Below are positions 2,351-61,764 of a stretch of DNA of 64,000 nucleotides, in pieces. This DNA is from Methylocystaceae bacterium (GTDB lineage Bacteria; Pseudomonadota; Alphaproteobacteria; Rhizobiales; Beijerinckiaceae). A model generated the notes under the pieces. That model searched no databases, had not been told where the DNA came from, and saw only the letters and a program-made list of their open reading frames with translations. Within the stretch, counting starts at the first letter, position 1. Every line of letters begins with the position of its first letter. The position numbers and the translations under genes were made by a program. Where the stretch lies: NCBI GenBank assembly GCA_009773555.1, contig WSXZ01000039.1, forward strand, positions 1 through 64,000. Reading direction: 5' to 3'.

Positions 2351-3473
2351 GAACGCCTGCTTGCGCGTCTTGCCGCACGCGGGCGCTCTGCATGAATTCA
2401 GCAAGCGCTTCGACGACGCGTTCATTCGCCTCCTGCGCGCCGACGGTGAGCCGCAGGAAGTCCGCCATGCCATAGGCGCCGATGGCGCGCAGCACCAACC
2501 CGCGCGACATGAGGAAGCGATCGGCGTCGAGGGCCGTCAATCCCGGCGCCTCAGGGAAACGTATGGCGACGAAATTGGCGACGCTCGGCAGAACGTCGAG
2601 GCCGAGCGCGGAAATTTCTCGCGAGAGCCACGGCAGCCAGCGGTCATTGTGCGCGATCGCCGCGTCGAGATGGGCGCGATCCGACAGCGCCGCGATCGCC
2701 GCTGCTGAACCCGCGCTCGAGACATTGAAGGGCGAGCGGATTCGGTTCAGCGCGTCGATCACATGTGCGGGTCCATAGGCCCAGCCAACGCGCAGGGCCG
2801 CGAGGCCGTAAATTTTCGAGAAGGTGCGGGTCATCACGACATTTTCATGCGCATCGACCAACGCGACGCCCGCTTCGTAATCCTCGCGCAGGACATATTC
2901 GGCATAGGCGGAGTCGAGCACGAGCAGCACATGCGCGGGCAGTGAACGCGCCAGCCTCGAGACTTCATTCGCCGGCACGAACGTTCCCGTCGGATTATTC
3001 GGATTGGCGAGAAAAACGATCTTTGTTCTCTCGCTCACACAGGCAAGCAGCGCGTCAACGTCTGCTGTGTAGTTCGTTTCGGGAGCGACGACCGGCGTTC
3101 CCCCCGCGGCAAGCGTGACGATCTTGTATTCGAGAAACCCATGCTGGCTGTAGACGCCCTCGTCGCCTGGCCCGATGTAGGCGAGCGCAAGCAGCTCCAG
3201 AAGATTGTCCGAGCCGGCGCCGGCGATGATCCGGTCTGGGTTTAGCGCGTAACGCGCGCCGATCGCCTCGCGCAGGGCGCGCGACGAGCCTTCGGGATAC
3301 AGCGCGATCTCGCCGGCCATGTTGCGCAGGGCCTCCACCGCGCGCGGAGATGGCCCCAGCGGCGTCTCATTGGCCGACAGTTTGAACACGCGCGCGGCGC
3401 CCGGCGCGGCGCTCCTGCCGGGCACGTAAGCGTCGATCGCGAGAACGGTTGAACGGGGGGTGGGCTTCGTCAT
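2343..3473 (-). CDS. hisC: Histidinol-phosphate / aromatic aminotransferase
   Basis: A 376-residue fold-type I PLP aminotransferase of the HisC family. Visible features are the substrate-binding start [14 protein letters not shown], the phosphate-contacting [14 protein letters not shown], the [10 protein letters not shown] loop, DSAYAEYV with the PLP-contacting Asp/Tyr, and [18 protein letters not shown] with the Schiff-base lysine. In alphaproteobacteria this HisC paralogue next to tyrA and chorismate mutase may act on imidazole-acetol phosphate and on aromatic keto acids. The chorismate mutase gene lies upstream on the same strand but is separated from hisC by a DUF7662-VapC module on the other strand, so the usual operon is interrupted here. 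Confidence 0.9.
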
Positions 3474-57025: not shown

Positions 57026-57568
57026 ATGACCGAGCATATCTGGCTGGCGACGGGCGAAGCGACGGTTCTGGCCGCAGACGGACAATATACCGACGCCATG
57101 CCGGAGGTGATGATCGGCAACGTCAAGGGTCCGGTCGGGCATGCCTTCGCCAGCATGGCCGGCCAGGTCGCCGGCCATCCGCGCATGTTCGTCATCCGCG
57201 ACCTCAACCAGCAGGTGCGGCCGGCGACGATGATGACCACCAAAATGACGGTCAAATCGGAAGATTACGTCGAGCTTCTCGGCGGAGTCGTGCAGGCGGC
57301 GACCGGCGACGCCATCGTCGACTGCGTCGCGGAAGGGATTCTCCCCAAGGATCAGCTCAACGAACTCTGCATGATCATCATGGTCTGGCTCGATCCGCGT
57401 TGCGCCACCCATGCGGAGCTCGACAAGAAAGATCTCTATCGCACCAATTATGAAGCGACGAAGCTCGCGATCTCTCGCGCCATGAAGGGAGAGCCGACGG
57501 CCGACGAGCTTATCGCCAACCGCAAGAGCGTCCAGCACTACGCGCTTGAGGGCGTGTTCGAAGACTGA
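57026..57568 (+). CDS. Formaldehyde-activating enzyme homologue (Fae-like)
   Basis: A 180-residue protein of the Fae family. The start EHIWLATGEATVLAADGQYT leads to PEVMIGNVKGPVGHAFASMA, then VRPATMMTTKMTVKSEDYVE, DAIVDCVAEGILPKDQLNEL, YRTNYEATKLAISRAMKGEP and ELIANRKSVQHYALEG. Fae condenses formaldehyde with tetrahydromethanopterin in methylotrophs. By eye, the catalytic His of canonical Fae aligns with Met in YTDAMPEVMIG, so this is more likely a Fae2/Fae3-type homologue of unclear activity. An AAGAGGAA site precedes ATG 57026. It is a single gene, convergent with the RiPP operon and overlapping its end by 31 bp. Confidence 0.82.
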   Translation: MTEHIWLATGEATVLAADGQYTDAMPEVMIGNVKGPVGHAFASMAGQVAGHPRMFVIRDLNQQVRPATMMTTKMTVKSEDYVELLGGVVQAATGDAIVDCVAEGILPKDQLNELCMIIMVWLDPRCATHAELDKKDLYRTNYEATKLAISRAMKGEPTADELIANRKSVQHYALEGVFED

Positions 57569-58377
57569 TCGTCTTCGCGCACGCGCACGCCGATAATCAT
57601 GCCGTCCTCGAACCAGCTCGACAGACATTGCGCCAGCCGCTCTGGCGCAATCTCGCCCGCCTGCTGAAAGGCGGTCATCTGACAAATGTCCCCGAAGGCG
57701 TGGCCGGCGCGCGCTTCGGAAAGCGCGACATACTCGTCGGGCTCGAGCTGGCGGTAGGCGGATTCATGATCGACGCGCCATACGGCGGCATATTCGATGT
57801 GATCGCCCGCCGCGGGCTTATCGACGTTCGCCGGCGCCTCCTCGCTGATCGCCGCGCCATAGGCCTCGATCGTGCCGGCCGCGAGTTCGAGCAGCATTAG
57901 GCTCGGGTCGAATTCGAAGGCGAGCCGCGCCCAATCGTCGGGCGCAAATCCCGCCAGCGCCTGCACCGTCAACGGCGTTTCGTCGGCTGTGTCGAAGGCG
58001 TCGACCATGGCGCGCTCAAACAGCGCCATGGAGACGGCCGCAACATCGTCGCGCCAGCGCGCGTTTTCGCGCATGAAGTCCGGCAGTCCGGTCGTAAACC
58101 AGCGGGCGTTCGGATCGCGAGACGGACATTGGTCGATGTAGTCGTCGACCAGCGAGTCAAACGCCTCGTCCCCGAGAATCGCGCGCAGCCCCGGGTGATC
58201 CTGCGCAACAAAGTCCGCCAGCCGTATGCGGTAGCCCGTCTGATAGACGTCGAGCAGCGTCTCCGGCGCGGCGCCGCGCGGCGACGGCCGCAATTTTTTC
58301 AAGAGAGGCTTGTCCGCCTCTCCTGAGCCGGCCAGCACACGCTGCTGAAACAGAGACTGAAAATCGGCGAGCTTCAT
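57538..58377 (-). CDS. DUF2063 (HvfC/BufC-type) partner of an MNIO enzyme
   Basis: A 279-residue protein. The N-terminal DUF2063 domain reads KLADFQSLFQQRVLAG, ETLLDVYQTGYRIRLADFVA, HPGLRAILGDEAFDSLVDDY and LPDFMRENARWRD. The C-terminal half is less conserved (FEFDPSLMLLELAAGTIEAY). Proteins of this type partner DUF692 oxidases in bufferin and HvfABC systems, where they are thought to recognise the precursor peptide. The start overlaps the MNIO stop (ATGA). It is the last gene of the operon and overlaps the convergent Fae homologue. Confidence 0.85.
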   Translation of the reverse strand: MKLADFQSLFQQRVLAGSGEADKPLLKKLRPSPRGAAPETLLDVYQTGYRIRLADFVAQDHPGLRAILGDEAFDSLVDDYIDQCPSRDPNARWFTTGLPDFMRENARWRDDVAAVSMALFERAMVDAFDTADETPLTVQALAGFAPDDWARLAFEFDPSLMLLELAAGTIEAYGAAISEEAPANVDKPAAGDHIEYAAVWRVDHESAYRQLEPDEYVALSEARAGHAFGDICQMTAFQQAGEIAPERLAQCLSSWFEDGMIIGVRVREDDQSSNTPSSA

Positions 58378-59219
58378 GCCGCGCTGAGCGCTCGCTCTTT
58401 TGAGAGGCGGGCGTCGATGTCGCGCATATTCTGGAGTTCGTCGAGAAGCTCCGCAAGCGGCGGATAATTGTCGTCGCGCTCGATCATGGCGGAAACGTCG
58501 CCGCAGCGGCGACGCGCGTGCTCGTAGAGCGCCCAGACCTCATCACAGACCGGCTGGTCGTGTGTGTCCACGCGATGCGTCTCGTGATCGGTGTGACCCG
58601 CCATGTGAAATTGCACGACGCGATCGGCCGGAACGCCGTCGATGAAGGCGACCGGATCGAAGCCATGGTTGAAGCTCGAAACGAAAACATTGTTGACGTC
58701 GAGCAGCAACAGGCAGTCGGCGCGCTCGGCCATTTCGCGGACGAACTCGTGTTCGCTCATCTCTGAATCGACGAAGGACACGTAGGTTGAGGCGTTTTCA
58801 ACGACCAGCCGACGCTTGAGAAAATCCTGCACCCGCTGAATGCGCTCGACAATATGCGCAAGCGCTTCGCGCGTATAGGGAATGGGCAGCAGATCGTGGA
58901 GCGTCACCCCATGAACGCCTGTCCAGGCGACGTGATCTGAAACCCATGCCGGCTGAATGCGTTCAGCGAGCGCCTTCAATTGCCGCAAATAGTCGAAGTT
59001 GAGCGGGTCGGTTGACGCAAGCGACATCGAGACGCCATGCATGACGACGGGATAATCGGCGCGTATCCGCTCCAACATCGCCAGCGGCCGGCCGCCGGCG
59101 AGCATGTAGTTTTCAGAAATGATTTCGAACCAGTCGATCGGCGGGCGCGACGACAGGATCTCTTCATAATAGATCGGCCGCAGGCCCAAGCCGTAGCCAA
59201 GCGGCGGGGGCTTTTCCAT
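58374..59219 (-). CDS. DUF692 multinuclear non-heme iron oxidase (MNIO)
   Basis: A 281-residue TIM-barrel enzyme of the DUF692/MNIO family, the group of MbnB (methanobactin) and bufferin oxidases. The likely metal ligands are visible in order: WFEIISENYM, PVVMHGVSMSLA, AWVSDHVAWTG, RRLVVENASTYV, LLLDVNNVFVSS, VQFHMAGHTDHE and SAMIERDDNYPPL. Members use mixed-valent iron to convert peptide cysteines to oxazolone-thioamide or thiooxazole-type groups. ATG 59219 has an AGAGGGA site; 59240 is a possible longer start. It lies 89 bp after the precursor gene and is coupled to the DUF2063 gene. Confidence 0.92.
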   Translation of the reverse strand: MEKPPPLGYGLGLRPIYYEEILSSRPPIDWFEIISENYMLAGGRPLAMLERIRADYPVVMHGVSMSLASTDPLNFDYLRQLKALAERIQPAWVSDHVAWTGVHGVTLHDLLPIPYTREALAHIVERIQRVQDFLKRRLVVENASTYVSFVDSEMSEHEFVREMAERADCLLLLDVNNVFVSSFNHGFDPVAFIDGVPADRVVQFHMAGHTDHETHRVDTHDQPVCDEVWALYEHARRRCGDVSAMIERDDNYPPLAELLDELQNMRDIDARLSKERALSAA

Positions 59220-59308
59220 GACGTGTTCCCTCTCAGGCATCGCCGCTCATGCCGGAGCCGCATCGGCGTGGCGGGGACGGCCTTGAAAGCCGCCCCCGCA
59301 TAAGGCGA

Positions 59309-59539
59309 TTACTTGCTGTGGCAGCGGCTCTTCATGTTGCAGCGGCCCTTGTGATGGTGACACTGCGCCTTGTGGTGGCATTTGGCCATGTGGCGGCAGC
59401 TTCCCTTGGCGCCGCAATGAGTCTTCGCGTGGGTCGACTTCGCGGAATGCGCGTAGGCGGGCGCAACCGACGCGCCGCTCAGAGCAAGGGCGACGGCGGC
59501 GGCGGCGAGAGCCGAACCTGAAATAATATTCGTCTTCAT
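59309..59539 (-). CDS. Cys/His-rich secreted RiPP precursor (bufferin/HvfA-like)
   Basis: A 76-residue peptide. Residues 1-30 are a signal peptide (hydrophobic IISGSALAAAAVALALSGA, cleavage near AYA-H). The mature part has Cys at 42, 48, 54, 60, 67 and 73, almost all six apart, and ten His, with many Lys and Arg (core segments CGAKGSCRHMAKC, CHHKAQC, CHHHKGRC, CNMKSRC). It is directly upstream of the MNIO and DUF2063 genes, so it is the likely substrate. Known bufferins bind copper; here the His pairs strengthen a metal-binding idea. The core does not match the usual DUF2282 pattern that I know. A GAGGAGAAAGAG site precedes the ATG. Confidence 0.8.
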   Translation of the reverse strand: MKTNIISGSALAAAAVALALSGASVAPAYAHSAKSTHAKTHCGAKGSCRHMAKCHHKAQCHHHKGRCNMKSRCHSK

Positions 59540-59774
59540 CTCTTTCTCCTCTTTATATCCCTATCGCAACGACCGAAGTTCACTGGTCTTCGGCCAAGCG
59601 GCCCGGCGCCCATGTCGATCGGCGGATTCGACGCCGCTGACGTTCTGCGGCGCGCCGAAGCCTAGCAGTCGGCGCAGACTATGCGTGCGGCTGCGATTCC
59701 GCTAGGGAGAAATTCGCCAACAAATCAGCCTTTTTGAGTTATGATTATTATATTAAAACAGTATATTGTTAACT

Positions 59775-59789
59775 TATTGCAGTGCAATA
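59775..59789. promoter_or_regulatory. Perfect palindrome in AT-rich DNA
   Basis: TATTGCA-G-TGCAATA is a perfect 7+1+7 palindrome inside an AT-rich island about 240 bp upstream of either gene. It looks like an operator for a dimeric regulator; which gene it controls is unknown. Confidence 0.45.
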
Positions 59790-59865
59790 TCATGGCTTTG
59801 GGCAGGCGGTGCCGACTGTTTTCTTTTTGGCGCGCTTGCGAGGGCGGCGCGCCGCTGGTAGATAG

Positions 59866-60018: not shown

Positions 60019-61764
60019 ATGTCCGCCACGACCGATCGCGCGCCTACGCGCGAAGATTTCGCCGCTCTGCTTGATGAAAGCTATGGCCAGAACGAGGCCT
60101 TCGAAGGCTCCGTCATCAAGGGCCGCGTCGTCGCCATCGAAAAGGATGTCGCCGTCATCGACATTGGCCTCAAGACCGAGGGCCGCGTCGCCATCAAGGA
60201 ATTCACCGGCTATGGCCGCGACCCCGCCCCCCAAGTGGGCGAAGAGGTCGAAGTCTACCTGGAGCGCGTCGAGAATGCGCTCGGCGAAGCCGTCATTTCG
60301 CGCGACAAGGCGCGGCGCGAAGAGAGCTGGGTCAAGCTCGAAAAGGCCTTCGAGACCAATGAAAAGGTCGAGGGCGTCATCTTCAATCAGGTCAAGGGCG
60401 GCTTCACCGTCGACCTCGACGGCGCCGTGGCCTTTCTGCCGCGCAGCCAGGTCGACATCCGACCGATCCGCGACGTCGGCCCGCTGATGAACGTGCCGCA
60501 GCCGTTCCACATCCTGAAGATGGACCGCCGGCGCGGCAATATCGTCGTCTCGCGCCGCACCGTGCTCGAAGAGAGCCGCGCCGAGCAGCGCCATGAGATC
60601 GTCGCCAACCTCGAAGAGGGACAGGTGATCGACGGCGTCGTGAAGAATATCACCGACTACGGCGCCTTCGTGGATCTCGGCGGCATCGACGGCCTGCTGC
60701 ATGTCACCGACATCGCCTGGCGCCGCGTCAATCATCCGTCCGAGGTGCTGACCATCGGTCAGACCGTCAAGGTGAAGATCATCAAGATCAATCACGAGAC
60801 GCACCGCATCTCGCTCGGCATGAAGCAGCTCCTCGAGGATCCCTGGCAGGGCATCGAGGCGAAATATCCGATCAGCGCCAGATTCCACGGCCGCGTGACC
60901 AACATCACCGACTACGGCGCTTTCGTCGAACTGGAGCCTGGCATCGAAGGCCTCGTCCATGTCTCGGAAATGAGCTGGACGAAAAAGAACGTCCATCCCG
61001 GCAAGATCGTCTCGACGAGCCAGGAAGTCGACGTTCAGGTGCTCGAGGTCGATCCGGTCAAACGTCGAATCTCGCTGGGCCTCAAGCAGTGCCTGCAGAA
61101 TCCGTGGGAGGCCTTCGCCGAAAAGCATCCGGTCGGCTCGACCGTCTCTGGCGAAGTGAAGAACAAGACCGAGTTCGGGCTCTTCATCGGGCTCGACGGC
61201 GACGTGGACGGCATGGTCCATCTTTCGGATCTCGACTGGAACCGTCCCGGCGAGCAGGTCATCGAGGAGTATAAGAAGGGCGACACGATCAACGCCCAGG
61301 TCCTCGACGTCGACGTCGAGAAGGAGCGCATTTCGCTTGGCGTCAAGCAGCTCGCAGGCGATCCGTTCGCTTCTGTCAGCGCCGAAGAAGGCGGCGAGCT
61401 CAGAAAGGGCCTCGTCATCACCTGCGAGGTGATCGAGGTGAAGGATTCCGGCATCGACGTAAAGATCACCGGCACCGATCTCTCCACCTTCATCAAGCGC
61501 AGCGAACTCGCTCGCGACCGCGCCGACCAGCGTCCCGAACGGTTCGCCGTCGGCGAGAAGGTCGACGCCCGCGTGACGCTGTTCGACCGCAAGGCCCGCA
61601 AGGTCTCCGTCTCGATCAAGGCGCTCGAAGTCGCTGAAGAGAAGGAGGCCATCGCGCAATATGGCTCGGCCGACTCCGGCGCTTCATTGGGCGACATCCT
61701 TGGCGCGGCGCTCAAAGCCCGCGAAGAGACGCCCAAGAAAGCCAAGAAGGACGAAGAGGAGTAA
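60019..61764 (+). CDS. rpsA: 30S ribosomal protein S1
   Basis: A 581-residue S1 with six OB-fold repeats. Each has the GxV-x-x-I-x-x-y-G-a-F-V pattern: SVIKGRVVAIEKDVAVIDIG, VEGVIFNQVKGGFTVDL, IDGVVKNITDYGAFVDLGG, FHGRVTNITDYGAFVELEPG, VSGEVKNKTEFGLFIGLDGD and ITCEVIEVKDSGIDVKITG. The C-terminus is acidic and Lys-rich (EETPKKAKKDEEE). S1 binds mRNA leaders for translation initiation. The usual neighbour cmk is not seen upstream. A strong terminator follows, so it is a single-gene unit. A GGAG site precedes ATG 60019. Confidence 0.96.
   Translation: MSATTDRAPTREDFAALLDESYGQNEAFEGSVIKGRVVAIEKDVAVIDIGLKTEGRVAIKEFTGYGRDPAPQVGEEVEVYLERVENALGEAVISRDKARREESWVKLEKAFETNEKVEGVIFNQVKGGFTVDLDGAVAFLPRSQVDIRPIRDVGPLMNVPQPFHILKMDRRRGNIVVSRRTVLEESRAEQRHEIVANLEEGQVIDGVVKNITDYGAFVDLGGIDGLLHVTDIAWRRVNHPSEVLTIGQTVKVKIIKINHETHRISLGMKQLLEDPWQGIEAKYPISARFHGRVTNITDYGAFVELEPGIEGLVHVSEMSWTKKNVHPGKIVSTSQEVDVQVLEVDPVKRRISLGLKQCLQNPWEAFAEKHPVGSTVSGEVKNKTEFGLFIGLDGDVDGMVHLSDLDWNRPGEQVIEEYKKGDTINAQVLDVDVEKERISLGVKQLAGDPFASVSAEEGGELRKGLVITCEVIEVKDSGIDVKITGTDLSTFIKRSELARDRADQRPERFAVGEKVDARVTLFDRKARKVSVSIKALEVAEEKEAIAQYGSADSGASLGDILGAALKAREETPKKAKKDEEE

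Follow-up and report, generated by a model that had tools for sequence, protein, structure and literature searches.

A short Cys/His-rich peptide gene lies beside an MNIO gene and a DUF2063 gene in the DNA analysed here, a 64,000-nt stretch from a Methylocystaceae bacterium (hereafter, the window). The locus raises the question of whether the peptide represents a precursor family of its own or descends from a known bufferin, and whether the enzymes encoded next to it act on it.

Organization of the operon

The sequence-only reading had described three tandem genes, the last two overlapping as ATGA, with a 76-residue precursor, and had taken them for a bufABC-like MNIO/DUF2063 operon in a probable methylotroph or methanotroph. 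The open reading frames confirmed this arrangement, together with the six Cys residues (positions 42, 48, 54, 60, 67, and 73) and ten His residues of the precursor, and the operon assignment was supported, the host being a Methylocystis. The features of the locus are as follows.

57026..57568, plus strand: convergent gene of the Fae type (formaldehyde-activating enzyme), a conserved locus marker (conserved neighbour)
57538..58377, minus strand: bufC2, DUF2063 partner of 279 aa with a possible RRE-like C-terminal half (ORF, Pfam, profile match, and model)
58374..59240, minus strand: bufB2, MNIO of 288 aa (PF05114) classed as a BufB equivalog and carrying ERDD, the Cys-Lys group motif (Pfam, NCBIfam, and alignment)
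59309..59539, minus strand: precursor gene (bufA2-derived, type A), encoding 76 residues that include six Cys and ten His (ORF and sequence)
59312..59449, minus strand: predicted mature region, residues 31–76, a Cys/His-rich rewritten core predicted to be disordered (profile, codon, and AlphaFold analyses)
59450..59539, minus strand: leader (predicted signal peptide), residues 1–30, Buf2-like (leader profile and dN/dS; putative cleavage after A30, from A-Y-A)
60019..61764, plus strand: divergent gene with six matches to the S1 domain, a conserved locus marker (domain matches and conserved neighbour), which from its domain make-up we take to be rpsA (ribosomal protein S1)

The overlap between bufB2 and bufC2 spans four bases (ATGA, 58374–58377), 68 nt separate the precursor and MNIO genes, and the 3' end of the Fae-type gene overlaps bufC2 by 31 nt. 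Of 99 related loci, 86 showed an overlap (ATGA or GTGA) between the end of the MNIO gene and the start of a frame exceeding 180 codons; 12 loci had another arrangement, and one ended before that point. Because this overlap is so widespread, and because the Cys spacing is invariant among 15 related precursors (see below), the operon is more than a chance juxtaposition. A plasmid-borne origin was rejected, as the gene had no match in the plasmid collection.

The MNIO matched the Pfam family MbnB_TglH_ChrH at 369.8 bits and the NCBIfam model MNIO_BufB at 376.7 bits (cut-off 310), and scored 276.4 on the HvfB model against a cut-off of 360 and 79.2 on the MbnB model against 325. The partner matched Pfam PF09836 (DUF2063) at 61.9 bits, above the threshold of 27.2, and scored 19.7 on the HvfC model against a cut-off of 142. 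Its AlphaFold model has a helical domain and an alpha/beta C-terminal part (pLDDT 72.9); a BufC2 profile matched 3dee_A at E = 0.016 only, and the single sequence had no match at E up to 1.

A Buf2-type leader

The precursor appears to be of a secreted type, as suggested by K2, a hydrophobic stretch at about residues 8–22, A-Y-A at 28–30, and an AlphaFold helix at 8–20 modelled with low confidence; the predicted mature region had a mean pLDDT of 50.8, that is, it is disordered by prediction. On a profile of canonical Buf2 leaders, for which the segment scored ended six residues short of the first Cys, the window leader scored 39.9 bits. The leaders of 15 His-rich precursors of the same type (type A) scored 35.3–42.9 bits, and those of 24 precursors with rewritten cores of types A, B, and C scored 32.3–42.9 bits, whereas shuffled A/B/C leaders (50 each) reached at most 13.0 bits and none of 12 Buf1 leaders exceeded 2.4 bits. 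These scores led us to reject an unrelated new precursor family. A DUF2282 precursor was also rejected, there being no Pfam match to DUF2282 at E up to 1, as was an EGKCG (HvfA-type) precursor, the sequence containing no EGKCG repeats. In other words, the earlier view that the core is unlike that of DUF2282 bufferins stands, but not the separation from known bufferins: judged by the leader profile and the ERDD motif of the MNIO, the precursor belongs by descent to Buf2/BufA2, with the leader kept and only the core new.

A rewritten core

On the NCBIfam BufA2 model (NF050166), the window precursor scored 13.8 bits, below the cut-off of 60, and none of the further precursors of rewritten or type D form exceeded 25.4 bits, whereas canonical precursors passed (L015, 88.9; L054, 95.7; and an orphan precursor encoded elsewhere in the window genome, at 47899–48168 of contig C110, 97.4 bits). 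Scores below the cut-off say little, because a Buf1 precursor also obtained 20.9 bits. Six Cys residues at intervals of 5-5-6-5-12/13 occurred in 94 of 100 canonical precursors, and the residue following Cys was by far most commonly Lys (406 times). The window precursor departs from this canonical pattern, with intervals of 5-5-5-6-5 and no Cys-Lys. Its six Cys residues and their spacing were invariant in 15 distinct type-A precursors, in which Cys was followed by H, G, N, or R at all 90 positions counted.

When the window core was scored on a Buf2 core profile, 157 of 200 shuffles with fixed Cys positions scored at least as high as the real core; across type A, the number ranged from 17 to 183 of 200. 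The mature core thus seems to keep little or no memory of Buf2 beyond the Cys spacing. Meanwhile, related precursors form a series of motifs, from CMTPKNSCK in canonical precursors to CMTKKGVCK in type B; type C precursors have 8–9 Cys residues, and type A precursors share a tail, CHHKxxCHHxKGxCNMK, with the type C precursors of loci L050 and L051. Read from these motifs, types B, C, and A are intermediates in the change of a core at one conserved rpsA–fae locus. Since the core has none of the Cys-Lys contexts usual in BufA2, one modification per Cys, as proposed in the sequence-only reading, is less certain than first assumed.

The MNIO belongs among canonical BufB2 enzymes

Thirteen residues were identical in all 113 aligned MNIOs, including that of the window (E39, H68, H103, E148, E163, C176, D181, N184, H212, D225, H227, E254, and D256), and the MNIOs paired with types A, B, and C nested within the canonical BufB2 clade (100/97). 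The window MNIO carries the ERDD motif, as do all 21 MNIOs of the A/C clade. This motif matches the Asp that PMC13097082 describes for the Cys-Lys (BufB2) group, in which BufB2-Asp251 is modelled as touching the Lys of Cys-Lys. Eleven MNIO sites at first looked distinct, and nine of them, that is, all except Y16 and D276, were re-examined. None of the nine separated rewritten from canonical cores, because most are shared by Methylocystaceae with canonical precursors and V224 is restricted to the A/C clade. Co-evolution of enzyme and core at the active site was therefore rejected.

Distribution and selection

The order rpsA–precursor–bufB2–fae was found in 17/17 type-A genomes with an MNIO identity of at least 91%, each with an intact type-A precursor, and in at least one Methylocystis (G089), a canonical BufA2 occupies the same rpsA–fae locus. 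Of 31 Methylocystis-genus genomes, 28 have a rewritten precursor adjoining this BufB2 (22 with type A, five with type C but not A, and one with type B); the other three have a canonical precursor in this position. M. rosea SV97 is an example of a type-A strain. Within the samples searched, the His-rich gene was found only in this genus. Seven genomes (G114, G150, G152, G153, G157, G166, and G181) retain an A- or C-type operon in addition to a separate canonical bufA2B2 pair.

Among the 15 His-rich precursors, dN/dS (as a ratio of mean values) was 0.087 for the leader (residues 1–30), 0.26 for the spacer, and 0.15 for the core, and that of the MNIO was 0.075, values indicating that purifying selection acts on the His-rich gene. 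They also bear on the idea of a decayed or non-expressed locus whose core is drifting as relaxed sequence. Approximately 35–45 nt are absent upstream of the window precursor relative to close relatives, and the second canonical BufA2 of the window genome lacks its signal peptide. However, leader, core, and MNIO all have dN/dS values far below 1, the Cys residues are invariant and the His residues conserved amid synonymous third-position changes, and the locus is intact in every near genome, so that we find decay hardly credible.

Orphan canonical BufA2 and probable service in trans

Of the 24 genomes of the genus that have just one BufB2, 20 carry canonical BufA2 genes only elsewhere, without an adjoining BufB2; such orphans occur in all 15 single-BufB2 genomes of the type-A clade. 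In the complete genome G017, the sole MNIO is an 83% ortholog of the window MNIO, and an intact orphan BufA2 is present. Across the family sample, a BufB2 of at least 60% identity accompanied canonical BufA2 in 19/19 genomes, and BufA2 was absent from all 25 genomes in which the sole MNIO match was at most 47% identical. Because single-BufB2 genomes carry orphan BufA2, in G017 with one MNIO in all, the same BufB2C2 pair probably acts in cis on the rewritten precursor and in trans on canonical bufferins. That one leader-guided pair modifies a His/Cys core free of Cys-Lys in cis and canonical cores in trans after loss of the canonical pair is a tentative proposal, which we put somewhat below an even chance.

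The same observations could be explained if the cis peptide were exported as an unmodified Cys/His metal-binding peptide that retains the leader, with BufB2C2 kept for the orphan BufA2. Consistent with this, every Cys-Lys context is lost and yet ERDD is retained throughout the A/C clade, the window core is no better than its Cys-fixed shuffles, and no single-BufB2 genome of the type-A clade lacks an orphan. Against it, the rewritten precursor nearly always adjoins BufB2, the seven genomes with a separate canonical pair retain the rewritten operon, type-A precursors vary neither in how many Cys they have nor in how these are spaced, and within the precursor constraint is strongest on the leader. 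We consider an unmodified peptide less likely than a modified one, but a serious rival.

Proposed mechanism and significance

With moderate confidence, we favour a Buf2-type bufferin (captophorin) operon whose core-rewritten precursor is thiooxazole-modified, exported, and Cu(I)-buffering, and whose enzyme pair also acts in trans. BufC2 and BufB2 would bind the signal-peptide leader, and some or all core Cys residues would be oxidised by BufB2, each losing 4 H to become a 5-thiooxazole. The modified peptide would leave via Sec and, once periplasmic, buffer Cu(I) through its thiooxazole, thiol, and His ligands, and canonical BufA2 encoded elsewhere would be matured by the same pair. If it is chiefly the leader that is recognised, the core would be free to change; a preliminary statement in the portion of PMC12452194 consulted makes the signal peptide part of BufBC recognition. 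For the His-rich peptide itself, conversion to thiooxazoles, export, and copper binding are predictions. The related mmr operon of Microbulbifer was, according to a part of PMC12538549, neither expressed nor copper-responsive under the conditions tried, so copper induction should not be assumed.

A modified peptide might also serve mainly another end, such as handling another soft metal, supplying copper to particulate methane monooxygenase, or responding to envelope stress. The His-rich core and narrow distribution are unusual, and the genome already has two Buf1 (DUF2282) operons, an orphan BufA2, and a methanobactin locus. Nevertheless, the characterised relatives are tied to copper in the portions consulted of PMC12452194 and PMC13097082, and the sequence analysis found no specific sign of another metal; we regard such a role as quite improbable.

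Methane oxidation in such bacteria depends on copper. If one enzyme pair does modify both kinds of core, a RiPP core has evolved almost freely while leader and enzyme stayed fixed, and Methylocystis has a metallothionein-like thiooxazole peptide of which we found no description. No publication joining Methylocystis and bufferin was found in the main texts of open-licence papers, a scope that does not establish absence from print. In that literature, Methylocystis with DUF692 returned, by title and abstract, methanobactin papers only, and a term search of the available text of a Methylosinus copper transcriptome paper found nothing on the bufferin family. The natural series from canonical precursors through B and C to A bears on how much alteration next to the modified Cys an MNIO will accept, and complete methanotroph genomes with one MNIO pair and several precursors make in-trans bufferin maturation directly testable. 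A modified His-rich core would provide methane oxidisers with a new metal ligand set, thiooxazole plus His.

Comparison with known systems

The closest system is Buf2/BufA2 (NF050166, the Cys-Lys captophorins), with which the window operon shares the leader, the gene order ABC, a BufB-type MNIO with ERDD, the DUF2063 partner, six Cys residues, and the intervals 5-5-6-5, displaced by one Cys. It differs in lacking Cys-Lys, in an extra front interval, in the loss of the C-terminal WxPxKSxxAC part, and in its ten His residues. Buf1 (DUF2282) shares the enzyme class and operon logic, but its leader falls off the Buf2 leader profile and its core is different. The two Buf1 operons elsewhere in the window genome have precursors scoring 87.9 and 82.3 bits on DUF2282; their MNIOs have EWDN and ERDG where the window MNIO has ERDD, and that on contig C110 is 40% identical to it. 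The HvfA/oxazolin/fontiphorin systems (EGKCG group) resemble the window operon in their multi-Cys, low-complexity core and in pairing an MNIO with a DUF2063 partner, but the window precursor has no EGKCG repeats and the HvfB and HvfC models remained below their cut-offs. Finally, methanobactin (MbnABC) is likewise an MNIO-made copper peptide, insofar as the window peptide has the copper role proposed for it. The window genome has a separate mbn locus with a true MbnB/MbnC pair, whereas the operon described here has a DUF2063 partner rather than MbnC, a signal-peptide-like leader, another locus, and an MNIO of another family.

Operon and genomic context

The sequence-only reading had described a secreted-peptide gene, an MNIO gene and a DUF2063 partner gene in tandem, and all three ORFs were present at the coordinates claimed.

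59309–59539, minus strand: precursor
58374–59240, minus strand: bufB2 (MNIO)
57538–58377, minus strand: bufC2 (DUF2063 partner)
57026–57568, converging on bufC2: Fae-type gene (TIGR03126, 121.8 bits against 118.05)

By NCBIfam, the window MNIO is a BufB equivalog (376.7 bits against a cut-off of 310); it also matched PF05114 (369.8 bits), and its partner protein matched DUF2063 (61.9 bits). The 3′ ends of bufC2 and the convergent Fae-type gene overlap by 31 nt (57538–57568), and the divergent flanking gene, which encodes S1 domains, is presumably rpsA. Upstream of the precursor (59540–59800), the window lacks a stretch of approximately 35–45 nt that is present in close relatives and in most of them contains an inverted repeat with arms varying between strains. 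Farther upstream, the window shares GGAATC-N13-TAGTCT or a close match with 12 of 15 relatives; this motif could be an ECF-type promoter. The nearest solved MNIO by sequence was 3bww (164.4 bits). The predicted BufC2 model (pLDDT 72.9) was helical at the front and alpha/beta at the back, and a profile search gave a weak match of its C-terminal part to 3dee_A (E = 0.016), with no such match when the single BufC2 sequence was the query. The precursor model was disordered except for the signal helix (pLDDT 50.8).

Distribution of the precursor types

Relatives were taken from the best 80 of 113 loci in a named-genome scan. Among these 80, type A, the six-Cys, Cys/His-rich core of the window, was found in 13 loci (L036–L048; MNIO identity 92–98%), titled as ten Methylocystis and three unclassified Alphaproteobacteria bins; the nearest named record, Methylocystis sp. 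H62 (L036), had a 98% identical MNIO and an identical precursor. We take the host genus to be Methylocystis. Loci L049–L052 (MNIO 83–84%) held tandem mixtures of type A, 9-Cys type C, 5-Cys type B and 2–3-Cys type D, and L053 (Methylosinus) held a type B precursor. The remaining 62 of the best 80 loci (L054–L115), from Methylosinus sporium, Bradyrhizobium, Methylobacterium, Methylotenera and others, all had an upstream CKG-motif Buf2 precursor. In an order-wide sample of 347 genomes, type A protein matches (E up to 1e−6) occurred in two members of the same genus, namely the host genome and G017, the latter through its type C precursor; this sample is thin, and the restriction of type A to one genus holds for the searches made.

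The type D products are small secreted-type peptides with 2–3 Cys (e.g., KCGGKNGCPA) and Ala/Lys/Glu/Pro-rich tails, preceding the main precursor in tandem (L049–L052, L008, L009 and L015).

Retained leader and rewritten core

What raises this operon above the ordinary is a clean divide between a retained leader and a rewritten core. Profiles were built from 100 canonical precursors (BufA2, with Cys-Lys motifs) chosen by motif and split into leader and mature parts six residues before the first Cys. The leaders of 15 type A, six type B and three type C precursors scored 32.3–42.9 bits on the leader profile. Because their shuffled versions (50 each) reached at most 13.0 bits and 12 leaders of motif-chosen Buf1 (DUF2282) precursors at most 2.4 bits, the match exceeds generic signal-peptide likeness. 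Seven type D leaders were mixed (−0.8 to 26.5 bits).

The mature parts of types A, B and C scored −10.8 to 8.4 bits on the canonical mature profile. The window core was equalled or beaten by 38/200 full shuffles and 157/200 Cys-fixed shuffles; across type A the counts ranged from 0 to 67 and from 17 to 183 of 200, respectively, and a few members therefore retain slight similarity to the canonical core. Cys spacing was 5-5-6-5-12 or -13 in 94 of 100 canonical precursors and 5-5-5-6-5 in all 15 of type A, and the type A C2–C6 intervals repeat the canonical C1–C5 intervals, which is suggestive only. In canonical precursors Cys was followed most often by K, and in type A by H, G, N or R.

Precursor series at a conserved locus

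INTERMEDIATES

Canonical precursors adjoining BufB2 carry CMTPKNSCK (G089) or CMTPKNACK (G160), and CMTKKGVCK occurs in most type B precursors. In L050 and L051, type C combines a front resembling that of B with a CHHKxxCHHSKGACNMKSKCH tail; in type A, a similar tail follows an HCGxKxxC front, which lines up with the second Cys of B and C. We infer that change ran from canonical through B or C to A. The order rpsA-precursor-bufB2-fae was found in 17/17 type A genomes with MNIO identity of at least 91%; in G089, a canonical BufA2 sits between rpsA and fae, and within the stretch read, rpsA was visible in G160 and fae in G162 and G149. Over 31 genomes of the genus that have this BufB2, the adjoining precursor was type A in 22, type C without A in five, type B in one and canonical in three. 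The BufB2 of G105 (L011) carries ERDN, and no precursor was found beside it. In a tree of 58 MNIOs, the A/B/C enzymes were nested within the canonical BufB2 clade (32-row branch, 100/97; 21 A/B/C rows, 100/99), with the branching order inside the 32 rows not fixed and several canonical rows long-branched.

Enzyme site and selection

BufB2-Asp251 has been modelled in contact with the Lys that follows Cys (PMC13097082). The window MNIO carries a corresponding Asp (D257, following D256), as do 21/21 rows of the A/C clade and 70/72 canonical rows, with Glu in the L118 paralog; its retention is consistent with the enzyme still serving canonical BufA2. In type A, the Arg and His that follow Cys might still be able to pair with this Asp. 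None of nine enzyme sites examined tracked core type, which counts against enzyme-core co-adaptation.

Mean pairwise Nei-Gojobori values for type A were dS 0.67 and dN 0.058 for the leader (97/105 pairs usable) and dS 0.60 and dN 0.090 for the core (98/105), with a dN/dS ratio of 0.26 for the spacer; the MNIO ratio was 0.075 (120/120). The His columns of type A contained synonymous CAC/CAT changes.

Orphan canonical precursors

The host genome, a 4.0 Mb draft, also encodes a canonical BufA2 (C110:47899–48168; NF050166, 97.4 bits) that has no BufB2 beside it and adjoins ECF sigma/NrsF genes belonging to a Buf1 operon (DUF2282, 87.9 bits). Across the genus, canonical BufA2 occurred in 32/39 genomes, the same 32 that have BufB2; of the seven with neither, five were 64–81% complete and two 98–99%. 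A single BufB2 (E up to 1e−80) was found in 24 genomes; in 20 of them every canonical BufA2, of which each genome has at least one, lay more than 2.5 kb from it. By this distance, all 15 type A genomes with a single BufB2 had canonical BufA2 only away from it; in 13, one orphan lay approximately 2 kb away from another MNIO, in the same score class as the host's Buf1 MNIO, on the same contig, and in the other two they were on separate contigs. These are raw counts that ignore kinship, draft contigs can hide neighbours, and intactness was checked for part of the orphans; the best orphan of G171 is interrupted by an internal stop.

The two clearest cases are G158, a single contig with one BufB2 and two orphans, and G017, which is 100% complete on six contigs and has an intact orphan and exactly one MNIO (PF05114), 83% identical to that of the window and neighbouring an 8-Cys type C. 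The orphan arrangement, also above the ordinary, suggests that a single enzyme pair serves several substrates. Because BufA2 usually adjoins BufB2 outside the genus, the case for maturation in trans depends on genomes of the genus. A family sample comprised 149 genomes, 19 of which had canonical BufA2; all 19 belonged to the 20 genomes with a BufB2 of at least 60% identity, and none of the 25 whose sole MNIO match (E up to 1e−60) was at most 47% identical had one.

In G160, BufA2 and BufC persist and 9 of 13 invariant MNIO residues are changed or inside an internal deletion; this canonical-type locus (L204, G160:C7:1500–7500) has apparently been caught in decay. The match of the second BufB2 of G154 covers query residues 5–200 only. 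A second canonical BufA2 of the host (L194, G000:C51:18000–24500, at 3126–3281) lacks a signal peptide; its counterpart in G155 (L196) is intact, and a PepSY_TM gene adjoins the host copy, with a like gene beside that of G155.

Comparison with known MNIO systems

In another host locus (L003, G000:C21:22492–26268), one ORF (595–2307) encodes a TIGR04222 domain (79.8 bits) joined in the same frame to an MNIO (274.6 bits); other open frames in this score class were shorter (290–375 aa). TIGR04222 proteins are suspected MNIO substrates (PMC12452194), and for this reason the ORF may be a substrate-enzyme fusion, or else a local frame fusion. A methanobactin locus (L005, G000:C11:51117–54354) encodes MbnB (450.7 bits) and MbnC (293 bits), so the genome combines bufferin and methanobactin systems.

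The window operon is real and well conserved, and it is a variant of the bufferins rather than a new class. The captophorin paper groups precursors as DUF2282, a 5-mer repeat with Lys-Cys, or multiple Cys-Lys motifs (PMC13097082); because type A has one Lys-Cys outside a 5-mer repeat and no Cys-Lys, we assign it to none of these three groups as described there.
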